From NCBI GenBank assembly GCA_030272155.1, contig CP126193.1, positions 4,464,001-4,528,000 on the forward strand: a stretch of 64,000 nucleotides of DNA, read 5' to 3'. A program made the translations under genes and the position numbers. Source of the stretch: Tetradesmus obliquus (taxonomy: Eukaryota > Chlorophyta > Chlorophyceae > Sphaeropleales > Scenedesmaceae). Under the pieces are notes generated by a model. The model had not been told where the DNA came from. It did not search any database and saw nothing but the letters and a program-made list of their open reading frames with translations. Numbering within the stretch: the first letter of the stretch is position 1; each line of letters starts with the position of its first letter. This document shows positions 7,849-60,516 of the stretch, piece after piece.

Positions 7849-10358
7849 ATGGAGCAAATAGACTCACCCGCGATGCATATGGAAGCAGGCCTGCACAAAC
7901 CTGCGGATACGTTCCCACGACCTCAAAGCCCAGATGTGGGCGGCAAGGTGGCAGTCGATCAATCCTTCAGTCAGCACTTGGAGGCAGAGCAGCAAGAACC
8001 ATGTGATAAAGAAGAAGCACAGCAGGAGGCTGAAAGGCTGGAGCAAGCACATCAACAAGCATGCACGCCAGCAACAGCCATGCAAGAAGCTGCACAAGAA
8101 TGCAGCACAGGTGCAGCGATGGAGCCTGCAGCAGAAGCAGCTGCACTGCTGCCGCAGCCACCCAAGGAGGCCTGCCTGGCTTGGATAGAAGCAGCAAAGG
8201 AGGGCGATGTACGTGAGCTGCACCAGCTGCTGCAGCAGTTCCCAGGCTTGCTGAACTACCAGCCGCCCAGCGGCCTGCGCTGCAGCGCCCTGCACTGGGC
8301 AGCGGCGCGTGGACACACAGATGCTCTGCAGGGGCTCTTGCTGTGGGGTGAGTGCATGTGGTGCGCGGCATTGACCAGCAGGGTGGGCTGCATGTGATAC
8401 GCCGGCCACTCAGAGTGTTGCTTTTTTATGAGCCCTGGTGAACTGCCACATCAGTTGTAGCGCACAGGTGTGCTGCCTACGTTTCAAAGCATCATCGGGA
8501 CTATTTCACAGTTGTTGAGCAGAGAAACAGAAACGATGTCAGTATACACATCCCTTGCTGACATGCATCCAAAGCCAACAGCGTTCATCGCATAGCAGCC
8601 AGGACCAGCAATGCAACAGCTATGCTGCGGTTCACATGTGCCTACCCGTATGCTGCTGTTTCCTCACACTTCATGGTTGCAGGTGCGGACCCTTGCGTCC
8701 TCACATGCACCGGCAGCTCACCCTTGCACTCAGCAGCAGCCAGCAACCGCCTTGATTGTGTGGAGCTGCTGCTGCTGGTGCCAGCAGTGCTGCAGCAGCT
8801 GGACTGGGTGAATGAAGACGGCCTCACCCCAGCAGCCCTGGCACTGAGGCATGGCCACAAGCTGGTGCAGGGCAGGCTGCTGCAGGCTGCAGAAGCAGCA
8901 GCCGCAGGAGGGCCTGCCAGCAGTCTCGCAGCATTGGCTGGTAGTCAGCTGGCTGGCGCATCAGGCATACCATCAGCAGCAGCAGCAGCAGCAGCAGCAG
9001 GTGCTGGCGCCCCAAGCAGGAGCATGCAGGCAGCGCTGGCCCAGCAGCAGCAGCAGCAGCGGCGGCCTGTCCTGCAGGGGCTGCGTCCTGGGTTCCTGCT
9101 GGCTAGTGCAGCTCGGCACCAGCAGGCCCTGAGCAGCTCAGAGGAAGAGGACGATGACGCCCCAGGCAGCAGCAGGAGCAGCAGCAGCAGCCCTAACAGC
9201 AGGGAGAGCGAGGATGCCGCACTGCCTGCAGCTGTTGAAGATGGCAGCAGCCTGCTTGGAGACCAGCTGGCAGCTGCGGAGACAGGACAGGCTTCACAGC
9301 AGCAGCAGCAGCAGCAGCAGCAGGGTGCTGCTGCTGTGATTGACAGGCAGCTGGGCCGGTCCTGGCTGGATGCAGCAAGGGCTGGGGACCTCAGGCTCCT
9401 GCAAGCACTGGCAGCAGCACACCCGCAGCTGCTGCCATACTGTGGGCTGGGGACCAGCTATGCGCTCATCGGCAACAGCGTGAGTATACGCTACTTACTG
9501 TTTCTGTGTGCGTTTTTGGTTGACATTCCATTCAATGTGATGTGAGGATATCGGGCAGTTGCTGTGTGAGGTAGTGGCTGAAAGGTTGAAGTAGGCTGGA
9601 AGCAACAGCTGCACAGTGTTGTTGTCGCTCCCAGTCACGCACAGAGCGCTCATAGTTTTGTGTTGTTGCCCTTGCAGGCGCTGCACTGGTGTGCAGCCAA
9701 GGGCCATGTGCAGTGCATGGAGTGGCTGCTGCAGACAGGGGCCCTGCAGGTCTCTGCACTGCTGAACCAGGCTGACGCGACAGCGCTGCACACAGCAGCA
9801 GAGCACGGGCAGGCTGTAGCCGCACAGCTGCTGGTGGTGCGTGCTGCTGCTGATGTGCAGCAGCTGGATGGGCTGGGCCAGTCTGCTGTGCAGGCTGCTG
9901 CAGGGGCAGGGCACCAGGCCCTGGCACAGCAGCTGTTGCTGTGGGAGCTGGCGGCGCAGATGGCTGGCACTGACAGGTGAGAACAAGCGGGGCTGAAAGG
10001 CAGCGCTGGTAGCACTGCTGCATGTGCACAGCCACGGTGAACGAGCTGGCAGCACCGCATTTCAGCTGTGTTTTGTGACGCCTGCCGGAGCACCACTCAT
10101 CGGCTTGCTGGCTTCAACTTGCATCCAACTCCACATTACGTGTGCACGCCATGTTCCTTTTCGTTTGCAGTAACGCTACACGCATGCCCCCCTGCACTTT
10201 GTTGCCGTGCGCGCAGATCCAGCTGGCCTGTGAGCTCCATGCAGAAGGTGTTGCGGCTGGCAGGCAGGGCAAGTGATGCTGCAGCGTGTGTGGAACGGCA
10301 TGAGCTGGTGGCTGCAGCAGCGGACGTGGTGCACAAGACGATGCAGAGCAGAGCGTAG
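7849..10358 (+). CDS. Ankyrin-repeat protein with low-complexity linker
   Basis: Protein-interaction scaffold; the partner is unknown. Four exons join in phase: 7849-8347, 8683-9479, 9678-9976 and 10217-10358, giving 578 residues. After an acidic, Gln/Glu/Ala-rich N-terminus come ankyrin repeats with typical cores: ALHWAAARGHTDALQGLLLW, then PLHSAAASNRLDCVELLLLV, then TPAALALRHGHKLVQ. A roughly 150-residue Ala/Gln/Ser-rich linker with a SSSEEEDDD acidic patch follows. A second ankyrin block contains ALHWCAAKGHVQCMEWLLQ, ALHTAAEHGQAVAAQLLV and SAVQAAAGAGHQALAQQLL. The start is the first ATG in frame; upstream codons are open but begin with TTG. The linker holds pure CAG runs, which tend to vary in length. 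No enzyme domain is seen. Confidence 0.87.
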
Positions 10359-10422
10359 CTGACGCACTGCATGTCAGGCCTTGACTGGGGTTCAGGTCAA
10401 GGCATGTCAAACTTGGCATCGG

Positions 10423-10427
10423 TGTAA
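10423..10427 (+). terminator. TGTAA polyadenylation signal
   Basis: TGTAA lies 65 bases after the ankyrin-gene stop codon. This pentamer is the usual green-algal poly(A) signal, and the spacing is right for a short 3' UTR. Confidence 0.6.
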
Positions 10428-10880
10428 CCAAGTCCCTTGTGATTCGCTTGTTGTTGATCGTTCAAGCTTACGTAAAGTGAACGCACGACTTAATAACGAC
10501 ACGTGAAGCAGGCGGCCTCGGTGCCGGTGTAATTGAACCGTTGTGTGAGCTGGTGTCCGCTCTAGCTGCGTCAGAGTATTCTTTGCTGGTTATTACAGCT
10601 TTTGAAGTGGCATGGTAGCGTCCATGAGGTCAGCGTAGAACTTCACCGCAGTGCTGCTCTTTCGCAGCAGACACAGCAGCTGCCGCTTGGTTGTAGCTCA
10701 GAAGTTCAAGCACCTGGCGCTCTAGCACACTTATTTGGGGACAAATACTTTGTGACTGGCTAAGCGGTGCAGCAGTAACAGCAGCAGCTACAGCGGGTGT
10801 GCTGCCGCCACTGCAAGAGCAGCAGCAGCAGCAGTGCCTAGTCGCGGCAGGGGCAGCTGCAGCCGCAGCAGCTAGCAGTC

Positions 10881-13790
10881 ATGAAGGTGAAAGTACTCAA
10901 CCGCAACGAGGAGGAGTTCACCCGTGAACGCGCACAGGACCTGAAGAAAGTGCACCGCAACTACGAACCCGCGCTCCACCAGTTTCAGCGCGCGCACGAG
11001 TACACGCGTGCACTCAACGCAGCCAAGCTGCAGAAGGTCTTTGCTAAGCCCTTCATAGCAGCGCTCACACACAGCGACGGCATCACCTGCCTGGCCAGGA
11101 ACCCTCGCATACTCAACAGCTTGTTGGCGGGCTCAGCAGATGGAGACATACGCATCTGGGATATCCCTGTGCAGCGCACCCTCAGGCGGCTAAAAGGCCA
11201 TACAGGCGCAGTCAAGGGCATCTCCTTTGCGCCGGACGGCGAGACATGCGTCTCGTGCAGCACAGACTGCTCGGTGAGTGGCACCTGGCAGCAGCAGCTG
11301 CTGCGCTGCAAGACGGCGCTGGTGTTTCCATAGGAGAGGGGGAACACCTGCAGTTGCGCTGCTTGCACTTGCGTCCGACACCCTGTTTATCTCGACCTTG
11401 CATTGCTTCTGCTCTTCTGCCAGCTTCCTTGCCATGATTCTCTGGCATCAGTAACATATAAAGCTCTGCTCTGCTCTGCCGCAGGTGCGGCTATGGAAGG
11501 TGCCCTTTGCCCCGCTTGAGCCTGGGCCAGTGGAAGCTGAGGAGGCGGCCGTGTTTGAGTTCCAGGGCCGCAACGCCTTCCGGGCCATCGACCACCACTG
11601 GCGGGAACACCTGTTTGCGACAGCAGGCGCTGCAGTGGAGGTGTGGAGCCACGAGCGCTCAGAGCCGGTCAACACCTTCACCTGGGGAGCTGACTCGGTG
11701 CTGTCAGTCAAGTTCAACCCGGTGAGCAGCAGGCTATGCTGGCAACAGTAAGTAACTGGCGCTCAGCAGCATGGCAAGCAGCAGGTCATTGTCAGCTGTG
11801 TCAGGCGTTGTTTTAGATGGCGCACTGCAGGCATCACGGGGTTGCAGGCCTGCTGCAGGAATGTGATGTGGCTTGCCCAGCAGTCTGACGGTTGCGTGGC
11901 ATGCATGACAGCAGTAATGGTGTCTGTGTGCGCGGGTGGCATTGCAGACGCACATGTCCCTTCGCACATGTCCCTGCAGCGTCACACCTGCAAACGCTGC
12001 AGCACTCACCACACACTCTCAGCTGCTCCCAGTGCGGCTAGCCATACAGCAGCTCATTTCACCCCGCACAACCTGCGCTGCGTGACGCCGGACTGTGTTT
12101 GCGCTGCGCGCAGGCTGAGTCGGACGTGTTTGCCAGCACTGGCGGCGACCGCAGCATAGCGCTGTACGACCTGCGCAGCGCGCGGCCCATCCGCAAGCTG
12201 GTCATGCAGACGCGCACAAATGCAGTAGCGTGGAACCCCATGGAGGCCTTCAACTTCACAGCAGCCAGCGAGGACTGCAACCTGTACACGTACGACATGC
12301 GCAAGCTGCAGGCTGCAGCGTGCGTGCACAAGGTGGGTGCAGCATGCAGGCCGGCCTGCATGGCAACAAAGAGGTTGTTTACAAAAGCACGCAAGCAGCC
12401 AATGGACATATTCTCGTGTGCGCGCGCGTGCTCCGAAATGGAATGGTTGCGACGGTGCATTGCTGCAGCAGCGTGCCAGGTTTCTTTGCGTCCATAGCCT
12501 GCGCTGCTATGTCTCCCTGCACCCAGCTGTGGTCTGTGCCCTGGCTGATGATGTGTGTGGTGATGCATTGCTGTTCCTGCAGGACTTTGTGTCTGCAGTG
12601 ATGGATGTCGACTACTCGCCCACTGGCCGCGAGTTTGTGGCTGGCGGCTACGACCGCAGCGTGCGCATCTTCAACTTCAATGCGGGGCACAGCAGAGAGG
12701 TGGGCCCGCTGACTGGACAGTGCATTGGTGACTTGTCTCATTGAAGGGGTTCCGCATGCCGGTGGTTGCTGTTGCTTTCAGCGGCTGCATGCCGCAGTGC
12801 CTGGGTTGATGCCACTCCTGTGTTTTGACGGCTGCCAGCTTCATGCTGGTGCAGACAAGAAGACCAGCGTGATACGACCTGCCTGTGCGCACGCATAGCA
12901 TTATGTGGTGCGCTACCTGCTCACAGCCTGCCGACGGGCTTGGCCTGCCTGATGCCTGCCGCGCCTGCTTATTGGTGCTGGCGCAGGTGTACCACACCAA
13001 GCGCATGCAGCGCGTGTTCTGTGTGCGCTTCAGCGGCGACGGCAGCTACGTGTTCAGCGGCAGCGACGACATGAACGTGCGCGTGTGGAAGGCGGACGCG
13101 AGCGAGCAGCTGGGCGTGACGCTGCCGCGCGAGAAGCACAAGGCAGCATACAACAAGGCGCTCATCAACAGGTGAGAGGCAATGCAGAAAGTTGAGCATG
13201 CAATGGCTTGGTGGCTTGCTGGTGCTGTCCTGCAAGTGATGCAATCAGCACAGGCGGTGCTGTGCAGGTACTCACAATGCAACCAAATGGTGCACAGAGA
13301 TATGCGTGCAAGTGCGCCGTTGCCGTGGCTGCTGACGCTGTTGCATGCCGCTTGTACTGGCCTGCAGGTACAAGCACATGCCCGAGGTCAAGCGCATTGT
13401 GCGGCACAGGCACGTGCCGGTCGCCATCCACAAGGTACGCATTTGCTGTGCAGGCGCCGCTTTGTTTGGTTGTAGGAAGAATGGAAAGTCCCTAGGTTGT
13501 GCCGCTGCAATGTTGCAGCAGTTGAGCAGCTGCCTCTAGAGCTCTAGAAAGGCAGCAGCGTTGTGCCGTCCTGCCGCTACTCTGCTGCGCATCAGTGCAG
13601 CGGCTCACCCTGCTGTGTGCTTCCTGCTGCCGTTGTGCTCCTTGCTGTGTGCCTGCAGGCCTCCAAGATGCGGCGCATTGTGCAGGACTCGGACAAGCGC
13701 AAGCTGCAGCGCCGCATCCAGCACAGCGCGCCGGGCGCCATCACGGTCAAGCCGGAGCGCAAGAAGAAGATCGTGGCGGAGCTGGAGTGA
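10881..13790 (+). CDS. DCAF13: DCAF13/Sof1 WD40 protein of the small-subunit processome
   Basis: Nucleolar WD40 protein needed for 18S rRNA processing with the U3 snoRNP; in animals and plants it also acts as a CUL4-DDB1 substrate receptor. Seven exons join in phase: 10881-11273, 11485-11721, 12114-12332, 12583-12699, 12987-13171, 13368-13434 and 13659-13790. They give 449 residues, essentially the length of the human and yeast proteins. The N-terminus MKVKVLNRNEEEFTRER and the block ALNAAKLQKVFAKPFI are near-identical to the family signature. WD motifs include GSADGDIRIWDI, STGGDRSIALYDL, GGYDRSVRIFNF and GSDDMNVRVWKA. The basic Sof1 C-terminal domain is present (YKHMPEVKRIVRHRHVP, then QHSAPGAITVKPERKKK). 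Introns are short with standard sites. Nothing looks broken. Confidence 0.97.
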
Positions 13791-14814: not shown

Positions 14815-17800
14815 TCAGCCGTCGAGGTCCCGCTCCAGGTCCTGCAGCTCCTGCGCCATTGCGTCATCATCCCGCAGCTCATCAGCAAAGCCCTCCACGT
14901 CATCATCCTCCACGCTGCCGCTGCCGCCGCTGCTGGCCTGCTGCGCCGCGCCCTCAGCAAGCTTGGCCTGCACCGCTGTGGTGAGGCGAGCCGCAGTGTC
15001 CGGGTTGTCCCGCAGGTGGGCCAGCACGTTGTCCCTGCCCTGTGCCAGCTTCACACCTTCAAAGTAGATGTGGGATCCCTGGGAGCGTGACGGTATAGGG
15101 ATTGCAGCGAGAAGAGAGAAGAGACGCGTGAGCAGTGTGCGTATATGCAGGAGGTGACAACACGCAAAGGTGGGGTGCTCCTGCTGGCTGTGCCAGCTCG
15201 TGCAGTCGCAGCATGGGGTGCTGACACAGGAACTTTACAAGCAACCAGCAGTGCTGCGACAATCTGCACGTGCAGCTGCTCCGGATGATCAATAAGAAAC
15301 GCAACACAGACAAGCTCCATCACATCCCGCATCATCTGATACTGAGCCGTGCTCACCCGTGCCTCAATCACTCCCATCTCCTTGGCCACATCATACACGC
15401 AGCCCACTGAGTTGATGCCCTCGCCATACATAATGTCAAACTCAGCCACCTCGTACGGAGACGACACCTGCAGCAGCAGGAGCAGTGCACACGCAGGGTC
15501 AGTCAAGCCACACTGCACTGAGCAGCAAGTCAACACTACGCCACCTCATACGGCAATGACACCCGCAGCAGCGCGCACACACAGGGTCAGTCAAGCCATG
15601 CTACATGGCAGCGAGCAGTTGGCAGCAACGAGCAGTTGAAAGCAAGTGCCACAGCCCTGTGCAAGCCACTGTGCGAACAGCAGCCATCATGCAGCCGCCG
15701 CACCTTGTTCTTGACCACCTTGACCTTCACGCGGTTGCCCACGGACTCCAGTCAATCTGCCAAAACACTTGAGATTGTAACATAATAATAACACAGATGT
15801 AACGACAACTGCCGCCAGCAGCCGCACCTTGTTCTTGACCGCCTTGACCTTCACGCGGTTGCCCACGGGCTCCATTCAGTCTGTCACAACACAAAAAGTT
15901 GTAACTTAATGATGACACAGACGTAACGACAACCGCCGCCAGCCGCCGCACCTTGTTCTTGACCACCTTGACCTTCACGCGGTTGCCCACAGGCTCCACC
16001 CTGCCTGTCTCCGTGATCTTGTCGCGCGCGCGGATGTCCAGGCGCATGCTGGAGTAGAACTTGAGCGCGTTGCCACCGCTGGTGGTCTCAGGGTTACCAA
16101 ACAGCACGCCCACCTGTTGTGCACAGCATGGTACAACATAGCAGTCAGCCCAATCGCATCATAACAGGAATGACCAACTGCTACATAGATGTGTTGCGGC
16201 TGCTATTGGCCTCAGAATTGCCAAACAGCACGCCCACCTGGCAGCAGCAGCAGCAGCACGGCAGCACAGCACAACATAATAGTGATGCACAGCTGTCTTG
16301 AAAGAGGTGGCTTGCCGCCGCTAGTGGTCTCAGGGTTGCCAAACAGCACGCCCAGCTGGCAGCACAATGCAGCACGCACAATACAGCAGTGCATATGCAC
16401 AGTTACAACAAGGAACGAGAAGCAGGATGAGGATGACGGTGAAAAAGCTGATGTCCCTGAGCATTGCATCAACAAAACGCACCACAGACACCGATGCGCA
16501 GGCCAGCTGTTGTACTTGTGTGGCTGGCCAGACAAACATATGAAGAGAGAACTGGCGTGTGATGTAGCCCCGGGCAAGCCTTCTGGCAACTGCAACCATT
16601 GTTTGCTGCACGCTGCTGTTACAGCTTCACACGCACCTTGAAGCGCAGCTGGTTGATGAACAAAATGGTGCAGCCGCTCTTGGCGGCATTGGCTGTCACC
16701 TTGCGCAGCGCCAGGCTCATCAGGCGCGCCTGCAAGCCGATCTGAGCACAGCAAACACACAAAGCAGCCACACATACACAGAATGCACAGGCGGGCAGCA
16801 GAGGGACCGGTCAGTGAAGCAACACATCCAGGGACCTGACTAAGAGACTGATTGTCAACAACGAGTCAACCAAAAACTCGCATGGCCACATCAGCAATGC
16901 CGCAATCTGATACAGCTGTAGCTGCAGCCCCATCGCCGCACTCCTGTGCCTAATCTGAGTGCGTGCTGGTGCGCAAGCGGCTGCTCCACCACCCTCAACC
17001 CCCTATGTCTGCCTGACTGCCGCCTGTGGCAGCCGCACCTGTGGTGTGCCGACTTCACCCTCCACCTCAACCCCCTGCTGGCGCTGCACACCACCCAGCT
17101 TGTGCCCAACCAGTTGCCCTCGCCTCATCTCGAGCCCCCTGCTGCCTGCTCAATCAATCACAACTGCCGCCTGTGTCAGCCGCACCTGTGGTGTGCCGAC
17201 TTCACCCTCCACCTCAACCCCCTGCTGGCGCTGCACACCACCCAGCTTGTGCCCAACCAGTTGCCCTCGCCTCATCTCGAGCCCCCTGCTGCCTGCTCAA
17301 TCAATTACAACTGCCGCCTGTGTCAGCCGCACCTGTGGTGTGCCGATGTCTCCCTCCACCTCGGCGCGCGGCACCAGGGCAGACACGCTGTCCACGACAA
17401 TGATGTTCACCACGCCGCTGCGCACCAGCTCGTCCATTACGTTGAACGCCATCTCGCCTGCAAGGCACCAGACACAGAAAGACACGTTGAGCGCAAGGAC
17501 ATGCGGCGGCAAAGCGTTGAATGGCTGATAGCCGCCGCAAGTTCAAAGCAGGGACAGAAGCTGTCAGCACTCTGCCGCACCCTCAAGCATACAAGGAAGC
17601 GGGTAGCGACATGCCTGGGCAATGCAGCTGCTGTGCTTTGTACCGGCCACTTGTGAGCAGCGAAGACATGCCGACGTACTGCTGCCATCCTGGCTGCTGC
17701 TGCTGCTGCTGCTGCTGCTAATATGGCCAGCGCTGCGGCTGCAGCTGTTTTGCTGGCTCTGCTGTTGCAGCTGCTGGGATTGCTTGCTGCCGGCGCTACC

Positions 17801-22577: not shown

Positions 22578-25500
22578 TCACAGCCGGCGCATTGGCCTCA
22601 GTGGCGGCCTGGAAGCCGCTGCTGCCTCCATCATCCAAGGAGCAAGCGTTGAGGCATCAACGCCGCCAGCAGGCTTGCAAAGCTCCTCAAGGCCCAGCAG
22701 CCCCGTGCCCGCCTGTGCAGCAGCTGCAGCAGCCAAGAAGTTCTGCTGCTGCTGCTGCTGCAGCAGCTGAGTGGCAAGCATGTTCTGCAGCTGCTGATTT
22801 TGCGCGGCTTGCTGCTGCTGCTGTTGCTGCTGAGCCACCCACCGTACAGCAGCCTCCTGCTGTGCCTGCTGCTGCGCCTGCTGCTGTGCCTGCTGCTGCC
22901 TCAACAGCGCATCCAATCCAGCAGCAGTGGTGCGGTTGGCAGTCAGGCAAGCATCGAAGTGGGCAGCAGCATCCTGCTGCCTGAGCAAGGCGCCGCACAA
23001 TGGGCAGTTGACAGCCTCTGCCGCAGCCGCAGCCGCAGCCTGTTGCTGTTGCTGCTGCTGAAGCAATAACTGCATCAGCGCTGGGTTGGGTAACATGCCA
23101 GCCTGCTGCCGCTGAGGCGTGGCTGGCAACTGCCCAAACGTGGAGATCAGAGGGTCACCACTCCCACCCAACGCAGCGCCCATCACGCCAGATGTCTGGC
23201 TGTTGCGCGGGCTGTTGCCAGTGATGTGCACGCCTCCTGCACCTGCCAGCGTTCCCATTAAGCCACCATACGAGCCCGAAGGAGGGCCACTGCCTGGCAT
23301 CCTGCCCTGGCCACCAAACAGGTTGCCGCTCGGAGGGCCGCTGCTGCAGCCCATTCCGCCAAGATTGCTGCCAGTCATGCTCGCCCGCCCGTTGGCCTGC
23401 AGCCCCGCCACATTGACGCTGTTGGCAAGGCTGTTGGCCAGGCCCATTGCGGCTGACACAGCCACACCGCCTTGCTGCTGGCCGCTGGCGCTGAGCTCTG
23501 CCTGGTGCACCAGGAACAGCTGGCATGCACGGTGCAGCTCCAGGCGCTCCGCTGCTGTCCAGGAGTCCGCCATCTGCGGGTGGTTGCCCAGCAGCTGCAG
23601 AAGGCTGCCCAAAAATGCCCAGGGAGGTGCAATGTTTGCGTGGCAGGCCTGCGGCAAGCAAAAAAAGCAGGTGCAACTGGTCAGGAGGAGTGCCAGGTCA
23701 GTAGCAGTGCAGACCATGCATAAGCAAGCATGCTCAAAGCAGGGCTGGCAAAGTCGCAGTAATTTTGCAGGCAGTCTGCAATACAGCAGGAGCGGCCAAC
23801 TATGCAACCGTCATCAAACAGCACATGCCATGCAGCTGCTCTTCGTCACCTTCAGCAATGTGCACAGCTCTTGCGGCTTGAACGTCGCAAGGTCGTGGTG
23901 GTGAGAGGCACCACCACGCTGCAGCCGCAGGGCAGACACCTCAAAAACAGCTGACAGCAGCTCGCTGCTGAGCAGACCGCTCTTGTCGAATGCGTACACT
24001 GCGTTTGACAGTGCCTGCTCGTTGAAGCCGCCACCCCCGATGTATGGCAGCGACTGACCGCTGCTGAGAGCCAGCGCTGTGCAGCGCAGGCGCGTCAGCG
24101 ACTCGTTGTGGATGAGCAGGAACAGCTGGTGGATGGCTGGCTGCTGGCAGCAGGCCCCGCCCAGCAGCGTGGCAAAGGACCAGGCGATGTTCACCAGTGC
24201 CTGCAGGATGCAGCACAGCATCAAGTTAAGCCCACGCCAAACTGCAGCAAGACACCAAGACCACAGCAGCAGAAGATACAACGATGCAAATCAATAAGCA
24301 TCTAAGCTGAGAGAGCAGCGACAAACAACCTTACCAACCCGAACATGAAGCTGGCGTACACACCTGGCAGCTGAACTCCCTCTCAACCAGCGCCAGGTAG
24401 CGCTGCGCCTCCGCGAGCCGCGGCTCCCCGTTGGTGCCGGGCGGCTGCAGCGTGGCATGCGGCCGTGACAAGGCACGCGCCGCGGCTGCTGCAAGCTCGT
24501 TCATGAAGCGCATGATCTGGGGGTTGCGCTGCGCGTCCACGTCCATGCCACGGGACTTGAGGTGCGCCAGCGCCCATATGCTGTTTGACAGCGCCTGCAG
24601 CACCAAGGAAGCGCAGCCACATCAGAGGCGTTGGGCATGAATGCTGTGCTAAAAAATGACAGAATGCTGTGACGGCTGAACTCACAGACAGTTGATAAAC
24701 TCACGGATAACAAACCATGCCAGGTCACCGTCGTGGCTTGTGAGCAGTGCCACAAGATCACAATGCCGTGGCCAGCAGCGGCGGGCACTTCCGCAAACTC
24801 ACCTGCGCATCAAACGCGGGCGAGCCATCAGGGCGCTGGCTGTGCTGCACCAGCTGGTCTGTGATCTTGGACACCAGCGCCATCACCACAGCAGGAGGCG
24901 CGACAGGCAGCTTGGCGTAGCTCCACAGCATGTTGGCCAAGCCCTGCGAGATTGGTGCATTGATGCCGCCACAGGTCAGCATGTGCTCCACACCTGCTGT
25001 GCTCCTCACCTGCTGTCCTGCAAATATGCTGCTTCATGCTTTGCTTGCTCTTGCTTTACCTTCAAGATAATTTGCTTGCTCTTTACCTTCAAGATGAACG
25101 AATCAGTGCTGAAACATGTGACTGACGCTGCGTTCCCCTACATGGCGATAAGCAGACTGCTGCTGCGCGTCCAGAACAGCTGCATGCAGACTAGCTGCAT
25201 GCTGACCAACTGCATGCTGACTAGCTGCATGCTGAATGTGCCCAGATGGGGTGTGCCATACCTGAGGGCTGCTGCTGTCCAGGCTGCGGATGACGAACGG
25301 CGCCACCGTCAGCGCCAGCTCTGTGGTCAGCGCACTGTCGTCACTGCTGAGATCCAGCTTGGCAAGCGCCCACGTCAGGTTTGCCAGGCAGCGCCCATCC
25401 ACGCCCTTCAGGCCTTCGTTCCCTGTGTGAAGGTAGTTGAGGTGCGCCTGCAGGAACTTGCTGCTGATGGAGCCTGCAGGCCAAGCAGCAACACACATGC

Positions 25501-26815
25501 ATGCGTCACACTTGATGCATGGATTGCAATGCACAAGCAACCTAACCTGTACGCAAACCAGTCGTTACATACACAGCGCGAGCGCCGGTAGCCACGAGCC
25601 AACCAGTAGCTGCAAGGAAACTATGTTGGCCTGCTGTGCAAGCCATCACATGCGTGCTACAGCTGCGCCATAAAGCACTTCACCACAGAGTCAGTTGACC
25701 AAACTCACGGAGCAGCAACTGGAATGTGGGATGCCGCTGCAGTTCAGCCAGGTAGCCGCCCCTGCCCCTGGAAGCCTCCTTGGACATCTTCGCCAACCGG
25801 TACAGGCATGTCACCAAGTTGATGAGGTCCAGCAGGCAGTGGTAGTGAGCCACAAACTCCAGCAGCTCCTGCAAAACAGCAACAGGTTGTCGGTCAAGTT
25901 GTGTAGGGCGGATGCATGGGTATGCATGGGACATCAGGGTGACGTGTGCAGGTGGGAGGAACGGCACGCTGCAGCAACGCAGCACAGGCCAGCTCAGCAC
26001 TCACCTCCTTGCTCTGAAATGCGCTGATTCTCTTGAGCAGGCTGTGCTGCATCGGAATCGCCACATCAGGCACCTTCAGGACTCGAGCAGCTGCCAGTGG
26101 CGAGTCCACTGCGAGATGGCACAGCAAGGCAGCTTAAGGACAACGCAACACGTACAAGTGGGTTCACGTGCATTCATATGATTGGCAACACCGGCGTGTA
26201 AGACGTCTCCTGCATTGTTGATCAGTCATGCGTAAGCCAGCTACTGAGCCAGCTTCGTCTCGACGCACCTTCTGCGTCGCTGCACGACCCCGTGCCAGGG
26301 GATGCAGACCCATCCTGTGGCCAAGCTTTGATAAAAGGGCTGCCAGCCTGGCTAGGCGGGGTGCTCGCTGCACTTGAGGGGCCTATGATGCCCACGCTTG
26401 ACCGCTTTCGCCTGTACAATAGCCCCTACATGATGGAAAACAGACATTGTAAGCACATCACGCACTTCCCGAGACTGAAGGAGTGCATGCTAGGGGATGC
26501 TTCTGTGTCACACACCTCATTCCCTGCTCCTTCGCTAGAGCGCCTGCCCCGTATATTATGCATGTATTTTGTGTTTGAGGCACGCTCATTAGGAAAAGTC
26601 AGACCATTCACCAGCTTCGACTGTGAGAGGGAAAGCCGAGGAATACGTTCTAGCCCCGCGTCTGTATGCGTGGCAATCAAAGAATATGTCATAACTATCT
26701 TGTCAACTTCAAGGCAATGTCGAGGTGCCCAAAGCGACGGCACCAAGTAGTAGTAGCGCTGTGTCACATGACACAGGGTCTTGTGGTTGGGGTGGTTCGG
26801 TGCAATGCACTGCAT
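22578..26815 (-). CDS. OPR-repeat protein with C-terminal UBZ4-like zinc finger
   Basis: Probable organelle RNA-binding protein: octotricopeptide (OPR) proteins stabilise or process single plastid or mitochondrial transcripts in green algae. Exons joining in phase: 26815-26466, 26411-26269, 26108-26005, 25868-25709, 25473-25262, 25009-24803, 24594-24364, 24200-23850 and 23648-22578, about 942 residues. OPR-like helices repeat as CLANLTWALAKL, GLANMLWSYAKL, ALSNSIWALAHL, LVNIAWSFATLL and ALSNAVYAFDKSG. The last exon is Gly/Gln-rich with long polyQ. At about residues 801-820 it has a C-x2-C-x11-H-x3-C finger starting CPLCG and ending HFDAC, the spacing of UBZ4 ubiquitin-binding fingers. The first exon is AT-richer and its ATG is uncertain; the intron after it would be only 54 nt. 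Confidence 0.78.
25176..25240. repeat. Short imperfect tandem repeat in an OPR-gene intron
   Basis: The words 'agctgcatgctgact' and 'aactgcatgctgact' recur four times at about 18-bp steps inside the intron between the exons at 25473-25262 and 25009-24803. Confidence 0.55.
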
Positions 26816-53898: not shown

Positions 53899-54271
53899 CT
53901 ACTGCGCAGCCACTGCTGCGCCGTGCCCTGCTGCTGCCAGCTGCTCCAGGATGCTGTCCACCTTCACACACGTGGCCGTCACCTGGCGCTCCCACTGCAC
54001 CAGCTGCTCCAGGCTGGCCTCAAAGTGGATCAGCCCATCCACCTGGTCAATGCTGCCCTGCAGCCGGCCCTCCCCAATCATGTCAGCAGCCAGCTCTTCG
54101 GCCTTGGCAGGTTGCACATCCAGCAGCGTGCCCAGCTCCTGCATGCAGCAGCAGCAGCAGCAGCACGACAGCAGTGTGATCCTTTGTGGCATATAAATTG
54201 CTGAATTTGTCGGCAGCAAGCTCCTCAGCCTTCATCGGTTGCACATCCAGCAGCGTGCCCAGCTCCTGCAC

Positions 54272-54304
<33 letters not shown>

Positions 54305-56405
54305 CCACCACAGCAGTGTGATCCTTTGTGGCATACAAACCGCTGAATTTGTCAGCAGCAAGCTCCTCAGCCTTGGCCGGTTGCACATCCAGCAGCGTGC
54401 CCAGCTCCTGCAAGCAGCAGCAGCAGCAGCAGCGCGGCGGCGACAGCAGCAGTGGTGTACTGTAAGCATAATAGCGTGCATCAAATGCATTGCATACTGC
54501 AAGAAGCGAGTCAGGGCGAAAGCTCTGCGTTTGCACACATAAACTGCTGCCATGCCGAGCAGTTGCACAGGAATCGACAAACATGTAGCAACAGGCGACA
54601 AAGAGCCAGCCAAACAATCACGGAGTGGCAACAGGTTGCGAAACACATACACAGAAGACAGAGCTGCAAGGCAACAAGAGCTGCAGGCGCAGCCGCAGCT
54701 AAAGCCCGCCTCACCGCCACTGAGATGTTGTTGTACAGCTTGCTGGCACTGAGCAGGTTGTGCTGCATGACGGCCTTGGACAGCACCGTGGAGCCGTCCG
54801 GCAGCGTGGCCATCTGGTGCTGCTTCAGCGTGGCCGCAAACGCCTCCACCTCCTCCCTGCGGCAGCAGCAGCAGCAGCAGCAGCGCGCAGGCAAACATAA
54901 GTACTGGTGGAAGATTTAGCGCCATCTGTCTGGGCACTTTGAACCGGGCAGAATGACTAGGAGAGGCGACAGCATGTGGCTTACAACGGCAAACAATGCA
55001 GTGCATGCCAGGCAACATGACTGCAGGCTATCAACAAACATGATAGTGCAACGCCTAGCTATCTGCTGCGCAAGCCTCAGCCGCCACCCACCGCCGCAGG
55101 ATGCGCTCCAGGTAGACCTTCTCCAGGAAGGGGAACACCGGCAGGCTTGCGCTGCGCTCATCCTTGTAGAGCTGGCTCAGCATGCGGCTGCGCTGCGGGC
55201 CTGCGGCCGCCAGGATGGTGCACGTGATCGCGTTGTTTAGCGCGCCTGCATGCGGCAAGCAGCAAGCGGCAGGGCAGGTGCAGGCACGCGGATGATGTTG
55301 CAGCCTCATGCGATTGTTGTTGCTGGGCGCAGCACTCAATCGCCACCTGCTGCGCTGCACCGCATATGTTGAACTATGAGGTGCTGCTGCCCCACCATAC
55401 ACATACCTATGAGGTCGTCCTCCCCCACTGCCAGCCCTCCCACTGTGCGTGTGGTGATGCTGGACAGCTCGTAGTAGCGCGAGGCGGCATCAATGAACCT
55501 GCAGAAGGCATGCAGGCGCAGCAGTGCGGCAGCACAGGAGGCACAGGGCATGTGTTGTGGCATAGAACACAAGCAGAACAGTGGCGGCTACATTCTGCAC
55601 CTCAAACCATAACATGCTGCATCCCAAAGTATGACCGGCGCCAGCTGTGTAGCCATCGCAACGCACGCGGTGAACACCCACGCCGTGCACAACAAGCTAG
55701 TACAGCAACCAACATGCTGCCGCAGCAGCCATGTGCTGCTTCCCATGAAATTATGGCAGACATATCTTTGGCGTCCATGATGCGCACACAGCTGGTCTTA
55801 TACTGCAGCTCCAGCACAAAATCCATTGACTGCTACGTCAACATGCTGCTGCTGCTGCTGCTGTTGATAATGTGCCACGTGGCTGCACCATTTCGGGCCT
55901 GGGCATTTCACACATCAGCACGGTGCACAGCACGCTAGCCAACAAGCAGCTGCAGCAGCCATATGAGTCCGCATGTCCCTACCGCCGCTTGGCGTCCATT
56001 ATGCGTGCGTAGCTGGTCTTGTACTGCAGCTCCAGCACAGGGTCCTTGCTGCCTGCGATGAGGCTGGAGGCCTTCTTGATGTACGTCTCTGCACTCACGG
56101 GGTCGTCGTCCTCCAGGTACAGCATGGCCACCTTGATGTGCGTGGCCAGCTTGTATGCAGGCTCCACGGCACGCACACCTGCACAGCAGCAGCAGCAGCA
56201 GCCATAGCAGAGTTGCTTAGAAGTGTGCGAGGTGTTCTGGAAGGAAGCACGGACAGCATGTGTACGAGCGCTGTCAAGTGCTTCGCCTGCACAGACCGAT
56301 GCCTGCTTGCTGCCTGTGCCTCTGCTGCAGGGAAGCAGCTCGGCTGTCATAGCTGGATGCTTATTCATTATGCAAGCCAGCACTCTAGGCTGCCGTGGCC
56401 ACTCT

Positions 56406-58115: not shown

Positions 58116-60516
58116 ATGTCTGATTCTGAGGATGACATGCCAATGATCGCTCGGCGTAGACCCGCTTCTGATGCACCGCCAGCGGCAGCACCCAAGCCTG
58201 CCGAGCCCAGCAAGCCAACAACAGTTGTCAAGGCGGAGGAAGCGACACAGCAGCCCAAGGCACCAGCAGCAGAGCCTGCGGCTGCAAAAGCTTCAAAACC
58301 AGCAGATGTGAAGCAGGAGCCGAAGCCAGAAGCCAGCAAGCCCGCTGCAGCCAAGCCCGCGCCTGTCAAGGCAGAACCAGCAGACTCTTCAGACAGCGAC
58401 GATGACAGGCCTCTTGCATCCAGGAAGCCGGCAGGTGCGTTGATGCAACAGATGTTTACGGATTGCAGCTCACGCAAGGCCGCTGACACTATGCTGTGCC
58501 CTCTGCAGGCGTGTCTGGCGCCAAAACAGTAGCAGCAACGGCAGTAGCAGTTAAGGTGGGTGGCGTGTTCTGATGGTTGTTCCAGATTGCCTGCTCAAGC
58601 ATAGACGATCGTTGTCGGTTATGTGCATGTGGGGCAGGCCAGTCTCAGCCAGCGCTGCTGCTTCTGCTGCAGCTTGTTGGCCGACCGCTGGCGGCAGTTA
58701 TTCTGTTGGCACTCCCCACACAGCTGTCCTGAACGCGCCAAATAGCCATCCTCTGTCTGCCCTGCTTCACCGTGCCATATCGTTGAACATGGAGATTCGC
58801 TACTGACGAGAAAGTTGCTGTTGTATGCTGCAGCCAGCAGCAGCCAGCAAGCCTGCAGTCAAGCAGGAGCCCAAGGCTGATGGCCATGCTGCTGCAGCGC
58901 GGCGCAGCAGCGATGGCGGCGCAGCCAGGAAGGCAGCCACGCCTGCCAACAAACAGCACAAGCAGCAGCCGGGCAGCAGTGAAAAGCAGCAGCAGGACAA
59001 GAAACCGCTGCAGAAAGCAGCAGCAGCAGCGCCAGCAGCAGCCAAGAAGCCAGCGGGCAAGGCTGCTGCAGCAGTGGCAAACGGTGCTGCAGCAGCAGCG
59101 GTCAAGAAGGAGCCGGGCGTGCGTGTGAAGAAGGAGTTTGACCTGCCGGGGCAGACCAGGGAGACTCCTGATGAGGTGCGGAGTGGCTGGTGCGATGTGA
59201 CGCGTGCCCTGATGCAGCGGCTGGCCTGATGTGACGCGTGCCTTCATACGCGTTGGCTAGCGTATCTGCCGCAGCTGCAGTTGCATGGTGTCCTGCAGCC
59301 ACACGGTGGCTTGGTGCGTGCAGCGGAGTCATGTCTCACTCATAGCTATGGCACACAGTGCAGCAGTGTTTTACATGGGTTCAACTGGGCTGGTGTGTCA
59401 TCCACAGCAGCAACGCCTTCACCAAAGCATCCACCATCTCTTCCAATCCTCAGGTGCCACCGCCGCAGCTGCAGTTGTCTCATCGTAGCTGCGTGCAAGC
59501 ACACCTGCTTGCAAATGCTGTTTGTGTGAATGCCTGCATGCAGAGCGACCCGCTGCGCAAGTTCTACATGTCACTGCTCAGCGAGCGGCCTGACAGCGCC
59601 ATGGCACGCAAGTGGTGGGTTGCCAAGCTGGCAGCAGCAGCAGCAGCAGCAGCAGCACCAGCACCAGCACCAATGATTGAGCAGTAGCCGGCTAGCAGCT
59701 GCAGTGACACTGCAGTGGCGCAGCAGTTGCAGCACCTGATCAGTGGAGCCAAGTTGTTTGCGCTTGCGCTGAGTAGCTCTGCTTATGCAGCGGGTATCCT
59801 GTCTGTGGGACCTGTTTACACGCCCGAGTGCACTGGTGATGCTTGTTGACGTATCATCTTTGACTGCTCCTGTCACGTGGTGCGCCAGGTGTGTTATGAA
59901 CGGCCTGCTGCCGCGGGAGGAGGCTGAGGAGTGGGTGCGCGCCACCAAGGGCGGCCGCGCAGCACCCTCTACGCCCAGCAAGGCGCCAGCCAAGCGGCCT
60001 GCAGCAGGTGCGGGGCAGCAGCAGCAAGCTGCAGCGCAGGCAGCGACACAATGCTTCGCTTCAACCACAGCATGTTTTAGTACACAAAACATAGCAATGG
60101 CGGCCAAGCACATGCTTAGCAAGTCCTGCGCAATGTTAGAACGCTGCAGCCAGCATGGTTCGCAGCTGCCAAGGCTGCCAACCAACTTTCCCACTCTGGC
60201 ATATCGTGCACTGCTGCTGTCCATGCTGCTGTTGGTGTGTACCAACTGCTGTGACACCCTCCATGCTGCTGTTCGTGTGTGCCAACTGCTGTGACACTCA
60301 TGTTGCCCCGCAGCTGCCGCCAAGAAGCCGCCGCCCGCCAAGAAGGCTGCTGCCGGCAGCGGCGCCAAGCCCAAGCCCAAGCCGCGGCCCGCGCCCAAGC
60401 ACACCAACAAGAAGGACCGCCTGGACTTCGAGATGAGCGAGGGCGAGGACGATGCGGGAGACAGCAGCAGCGACGACGACGTGCCGCTGGCGCAGCGCAA
60501 GGCTGTCAAGGCGTGA
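58116..60516 (+). CDS. Lys/Ala/Pro-rich nuclear-type protein, conserved core
   Basis: Function unknown; probably chromatin or nucleolar from its composition. Six exons join in phase: 58116-58434, 58509-58555, 58834-59175, 59544-59614, 59889-60007 and 60314-60516, giving 366 residues. Acidic-then-basic low-complexity tracts (SDSEDDMP, then KPAAAKPAPVK repeats, VKQEP and VKKEP motifs resembling sumoylation sites) surround one compact, plant-like core: RETPDE, SDPLRKFYMSLLSERPDSAM, ARKWCVMNGLLPREEAEEWV. That core, 'DPL-x-FY-SL..P-S-MA..W....GLL', recalls a small uncharacterised domain in plant proteins. The C-terminus is histone-tail-like (AKKPPPAKKAAAG) and ends in an acidic SSSDDDVPLAQRK, echoing the DSDDDRPLASRK of exon 1, so the two ends look duplicated. 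Confidence 0.78.
60221..60299. repeat. 40-bp tandem duplication in an intron
   Basis: Two 40-bp units (60221-60260 and 60261-60299) differing at a few bases, in the last intron of the Lys-rich gene, 14 bp before the acceptor. Confidence 0.7.

Follow-up and report, generated by a model that had tools for sequence, protein, structure and literature searches.

The window analysed here, a 64-kb stretch at 4464001-4528000 of contig C3 in a genome of 104.66 Mb and 17 contigs, which by its size, contig number and gene style is probably that of a green alga, carries on its minus strand a recA gene, of which eight exons were read between positions 14815 and 18606, the 5' end of the gene probably lying beyond them. 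The gene was recognized by tblastn with E. coli RecA, and its exon edges were placed by hand from the tblastn match and a home-made gene finder. Joined on their own, from 18606 down to 14815, the eight working exons form a single open frame whose sole stop is the terminal one, and part of the joined product matches the Pfam RecA family over profile positions 35-262 (357 bits). Since the joined working exons are open and match RecA, the additional copies of exon edges that accompany them are dispensable for making RecA. No new intron is required by the frame of the eight-exon join.

These copies lie at four splice junctions of recA, as had been reported in a sequence-only reading of the window, and TRF, a direct-repeat search and our own reading of the sequence confirmed their presence, coordinates and lengths. 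Working exon 6 (17333..17457, minus strand, as are all recA features) ends ACACCACAG, followed by gtgcggct, and the array at its donor (17016..17362; TRF and direct-repeat search) consists of the working exon edge and two intronic copies, with a unit of 147 bp, 2.4 copies and 97% matches by TRF. Working exon 8 (15952..16113), identified like working exon 9 (15357..15467) by sequence reading and from the joined frame, has arrays at acceptor and donor alike. At the acceptor, the direct-repeat search and a lag scan found the working edge, with its site at 16113, and two decayed copies (16069..16364), spaced 124 and 118 bp apart and 67-91% alike in pairwise comparison. The donor array, found by TRF and the lag scan, likewise consists of the working edge and two copies (15692..16009) and has a 124-bp unit in 2.5 copies at 89% (TRF, 15692-15998). 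The weakest case of the four is the exon 9 acceptor, where the direct-repeat search and sequence reading revealed a single decayed copy upstream of the working acceptor (15487..15605). The intron part of this copy is 31 bp long, 87% alike and spaced at 88 bp, and its exon part, as judged by reading, is about 23 bp long with 4 mismatches at a spacing of 95 bp. On reading, the copy carries CGG in place of CAG, as first described, and an in-frame TAG.

Elsewhere in the window, a COP9 signalosome subunit 4-like (CSN4-like) gene on the minus strand, whose product matches the Pfam families PSMD12-CSN4_N and PCI, carries an acceptor array made of the working edge and two copies (54081..54436; TRF, 142 bp, 93%). 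The lag scan also found a stretch of this gene's exon sequence repeated in a predicted intron (55768..56039, minus strand); here the matched stretch, 51 bp with its copy 221 bp downstream at 88%, contains no junction. No array was found in either of the two multi-exon gene models that flank recA (8119-13790 and 22578-26173). A separate short tandem duplication, a 40-bp unit present twice at 60220-60297, falls outside the ~120-bp class.

A second recA gene, at locus L009 on contig C10, is arrayed at the counterparts of two junctions of the window's recA, the donor of exon 6 and the acceptor of exon 8. Its exon 8 donor is arrayed as well, and the intron there stands 17 nt further on (L009 4541-4716, compared with 15952-16113 in the window), so that arrays adjoin both intron positions. 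The letters in the copies are mostly specific to the paralog and unlike those of the window recA copies; the duplications therefore look independent in the two genes, although gene conversion could mimic such separate hits. With respect to the gain of introns or the creation of exons, this near intron pair is the only hint of a connection. Near intron pairs in Drosophila, delimited at 32 nt, have been attributed to intron sliding or tandem duplication in the available part of that study (Lehmann et al. 2010, PMC2891723). The 17-nt shift between the recA paralogs resembles the pairs described there in lying below the 32-nt limit, beside arrays; it differs in that a mechanism, sliding or tandem duplication, is proposed there, whereas here the positional shift alone was read from the sequence.

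We then considered how widespread such arrays are. A DNA search with the recA stretch hit many sites in the genome, where a CTG/CAG tract by an acceptor recurred every 100-odd bases. Eight loci were picked through these DNA matches (hereafter the selected loci), and in them many arrays were found whose units combine an exon edge with its splice site. An unselected sample of 13 loci and 184 kb combined the window with twelve stretches of 10 kb each, taken at round coordinates (L017-L028). CAG/CTG tracts are common in the window and the other loci, often immediately upstream of acceptors, and one unselected stretch contains a retroelement with reverse transcriptase and RNase H domains (L025 6920-9955). 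Genes were modelled with the home-made finder, a hidden Markov model trained on most of these loci (L025-L028 were left out of training), which recovered a donor of AG/GTG and an acceptor of GCAG/G. Its weakness is that copies appear exon-like and tend to be labelled as exons, and the junction counts given below rest on its models.

Local direct repeats were scanned in all loci, and arrays were called near-intact when the lag was 80-260, the like stretch covered at least 75% of the lag and identity was at least 80%. The unselected 184 kb held 18 such arrays, with spacings of 96-147 bp and one of 253. A predicted junction was overlapped by 17 of the 18, whereas random units of the same lengths, placed in array-free sequence, contained one junction in just 25% of tolerated placements and in 49% of those within genes. 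The remaining array was labelled a gene end (L023 1669-2399), and an acceptor-like copy was seen in its units on reading. Not one of the 18 was intron-only or intergenic, against 8.3 intergenic arrays expected from random placement. Of the arrays counted as junctions, one (L019 1524-2020, four copies at 118-128-bp spacing) reads as a C-terminus with a stop codon and following sequence, and another (L022 4779-5243) is only a probable junction array. The junction excess has a binomial probability of 6e-10 overall and 5e-6 within genes; both values assume independence, which fails, and overstate the case because the 18 arrays are confined to 7 of the 13 loci and L027 alone contributes 6.

Looser criteria gave a less clear-cut picture. 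In the first 144 kb, a lag of 60-400 yielded 27 clusters, among them 22 with a junction, 1 at a gene end, 2 intron-only, 1 intergenic and 1 exon-only. When these clusters were relocated over the whole sequence, a mean of 13.3 overlapped a junction and none of 2000 trials reached 22, but relocation inside genes gave a mean of 19.3, and 283 of 2000 trials reached the observed 22, which is not significant. The stricter near-intact test was made because the relocation test scores copies as junctions and uses many-copy clusters. With the selected loci included, 69 of 81 looser clusters contained a predicted junction or an exon-to-non-exon edge; the other 12 were divided between unselected (4/27) and selected (8/54) loci, and half of them lay in L010. 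One array of this selected locus, labelled intron-only by the gene finder, is an exception to the junction pattern (L010 6875-7489), and intron-labelled repeats beyond the near-intact limits were seen at L026 1142-1234 (lag 166), at L026 9751 and in the CAG-rich stretch L027 2019-2629. The sequence-only reading had envisaged duplications that either form preferentially at junctions or are tolerated only there, and had set against this that they might be equally common elsewhere. The near-intact arrays tell against equal abundance; the in-gene relocation of looser clusters does not. A preference for exon edges is supported, on home-made gene models and clustered data, and an origin of that preference in geometry alone is only partly rejected, the three tests differing in strength.

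Arrays are also clustered by gene, and recA, which the same reading had singled out, is not exceptional. In the model of a pyruvate:ferredoxin oxidoreductase-like (PFOR-like) gene, 17 exon edges are arrayed (L015 84-9101), and in a TPR-protein gene a 106-bp exon-edge unit is repeated 15.6 times at 95% likeness (L027 7160-8815). Of the 34 gene models in the first sample that had three or more exons, 21 were array-free. Expression as the cause of the clustering received no support: third-position GC, which serves as a rough proxy for it, was no different in 19 array-rich models from that in 14 array-free ones, selected loci included. A prokaryote-like origin of the array-rich genes was also considered and dropped, as ion-channel and other genes carry arrays too.

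Across selected and unselected loci, we characterized 69 arrayed exon edges, about equally acceptors (37) and donors (32). Median units were 124 bp at acceptors and 131.5 bp at donors, made up of a median exon part of 49 and 44 nt and a median intron part of 73 and 80 nt, respectively. We removed 8 edges that are copies themselves and 7 with long units, leaving 54 edges with units of up to 165 bp and a median of 124 bp. Unit length had a standard deviation of 16, compared with 17 for the exon part and 21 for the intron part, and the two parts trade off against each other (r = -0.66). Being the least variable measure, with parts that trade off, unit length acts as the ruler. A second regularity is that the intron part was never shorter than 42 nt, against 12.9 of the 54 edges expected (0/5000 simulations). 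An acceptor needs its branch point and polypyrimidine tract preserved, and a minimum of 42 nt of intron at acceptors fits this need. Exon parts below 25 nt were likewise scarce, at 6 of 54 edges against 14.0 expected even with this sieve, in agreement with the absence of an intron-only class. An exon part of ~50 nt had been considered as a separate ruler; this was dropped, as the unit-length ruler and the 42-nt intron limit explain the upper bound.

The copies range from near-identical to decayed, as the sequence-only reading had it, with 76-100% identity to the working edge over 61 edges from recA and other loci. Between the nearest copy and the working edge at these 61 edges, codon positions 1, 2 and 3 differ by 5.6%, 5.6% and 14.6%, respectively, and the intron part by 10.3%. 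The divergence at positions 1 and 2 is thus about half that of the intron part, as expected if the working edge alone is constrained, and the copies decay nearly as neutral DNA. Consistent with this, some copy splice sites are lost and 3 stop codons occur in 954 copy codons. There are weak hints of constraint on the copies as well. Of the 253 differences between copy and edge, 143 lie at third positions, slightly more than the half or so compatible with neutrality (p = 0.022, from comparisons that are not independent), and 78 of 82 comparisons retain the splice dinucleotides, against about 89% expected for one neutral lineage. Among pairs with neither copy labelled as exon, 106 of 234 copy-to-copy differences fall at third positions; drift only would give one third, and seeding at different times from a constrained edge up to half.

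Taken together, these results lead us to favour, with a probability of roughly 0.55, a recurrent tandem duplication of ~120 bp that is biased to the exon edges of some genes, is kept when a junction stays intact and is then amplified. Small tandem duplications, typically some 120 bp long, would recur genome-wide, with a bias to the exon edges of certain genes. Where the duplicated stretch straddles one donor or one acceptor, the exon body would retain one complete junction and splicing could continue from the exon-contiguous site; we infer from the DNA that RNA is spliced at this adjoining site. The spare half-exon and its splice site would then sit in the intron, be removed along with it and drift nearly neutrally. 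The duplications may originate when staggered breaks are filled in and their ends joined, and some arrays would later expand via unequal exchange or slippage (up to 15.6 copies). Our leading guess for the exon-edge bias is that breaks are coupled to transcription or splicing, which would also explain the confinement to genes. More tentatively, a mutational process in this lineage might in effect 'read' junctions: transcription- or splicing-coupled breaks ~120 bp apart at donors and acceptors would be repaired to tandem copies, and introns would grow from exon edges, stocked with ready splice sites.

Would tolerance alone be sufficient? Duplications of ~120 bp could be random genome-wide, with selection leaving those that spare the coding sequence, and short exons and introns would make junctions frequent targets. 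The 42-nt minimum of intron at the working site fits such a selective sieve, and to this extent the idea of duplications tolerated only at junctions holds; the non-significant in-gene relocation, the L019 array, which covers a coding end and stop codon, and the junction-less 12 of 81 looser clusters point the same way. Tolerance alone, however, predicts junctions in only 49% of in-gene and 25% of all placements, and should leave common intron-only and intergenic duplications, a class to which 0 of the 18 near-intact arrays belong; nor does a sieve account for the rarity of exon parts below 25 nt. Decay is too weak to have hidden the missing classes, since the intron parts of arrays differ by just 10%. 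We therefore regard tolerance on its own as an unlikely explanation. Function is more doubtful still. If the copies were alternative splice sites or small cassette exons that vary proteins or regulate splicing, one would understand why the gene finder calls many of them in-frame exons, why splice dinucleotides are so often kept and why there is a slight third-position excess; but the divergence at positions 1 and 2, roughly half that of the introns, is what unconstrained copies would show, the copies contain stops and lost splice sites, and pieces of the recA, CSN4-like and PFOR-like products (only 281 residues in the last) match their own Pfam families with copies omitted.

Two further origins appear very improbable, to a similar degree. 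Traces of introner-like mobile elements, or of another transposon inserting at proto-splice sites, would be in keeping with an excess of exons starting with GT at arrayed acceptors: 10/29 with selected arrays dropped, against 17/139 in 13 confident array-free models (p = 0.006), and 4/14 in unselected loci (p = 0.10). As a general feature of arrayed acceptors the GT start was set aside, being much weakened after the removal of arrays found by likeness to recA's own acceptor. The copies derive from the adjacent exon, with no common element: among the 69 units, with simple repeats masked, the only matches between genes were those of the recA paralogs, all others lying within one gene's array. 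This lack of sequence common to the units of different genes argues against introners or transposons. False expansion of repeats or haplotypes in the assembly might be suspected from those copies that are 97-99% identical, yet other copies have diverged from the working edge at as many as a quarter or so of their positions, a divergence that argues against assembly duplication, and arrays recur at separate loci and in the recA paralog.

If the recurrent duplication that we favour is borne out, its scale would be considerable. Extrapolation from 18 near-intact arrays in 184 kb gives roughly 10,000 genome-wide, a very rough figure because the arrays cluster. How introns are gained, slide and grow has mostly been inferred from cases that are rare and old, and a genome with thousands of junction-straddling duplications of graded age could allow one to watch copies being born, purged or converted to introns or exons. 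Such arrays would also test how the splicing machinery chooses among near-identical sites a hundred bases apart, and the leftover, apparently dead exon-edge copies in introns may shed light on their growth and movement. Were junctions indeed read by the process, introns could move or arise from the stocked, ready-made splice sites.

Several known systems resemble these arrays in part. Introner elements are many-copy sequences associated with introns; the arrays share both properties and differ in that no element is shared among their units. For the duplication step itself, the filling-in of 3'-overhang breaks by CST-Pol alpha produces small tandem duplications in human and mouse cells (PMC8355091), a way in which short segments can become simple tandem copies, and the simple local copying and limited length seen here (median 124 bp, sd 16) match that feature; the available excerpt of that report deals with short insertions under 100 bp and mentions no junction preference. 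The Rogers/Hellsten model, as outlined in the accessible part of PMC4974935, has introns gained by duplication of an exon segment bearing AGGT. Local tandem duplication is common to the model and our arrays, and some arrayed junctions are preceded by AG or followed by GT, but the units here contain existing intron sequence, so the intron is older than the duplication. The nearest precedent is the potato RNA-dependent RNA polymerase gene, in which, according to the same portion of that paper, one boundary-crossing tandem duplication made a new spliced intron evident in RNA reads (Ma, Lan and Niu 2016, PMC4974935). There, as here, a tandem duplication ran over an intron-exon boundary and copied the splice site and exon head, and the head-to-tail copies with an exon-intron boundary in the unit that mark such an event are present in our arrays. 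Nothing at our arrays points to the use of a new intron, whereas the potato gene gained one. Among the matches listed in a literature search with subscription journals largely outside its reach, there was no report of junction-straddling arrays genome-wide. A single junction-crossing duplication is thus already published, in potato; what is new, within the literature searched, is the genome-wide recurrence, seen in DNA alone, in many genes, at donors and acceptors and in arrays of 2 to about 16 copies.
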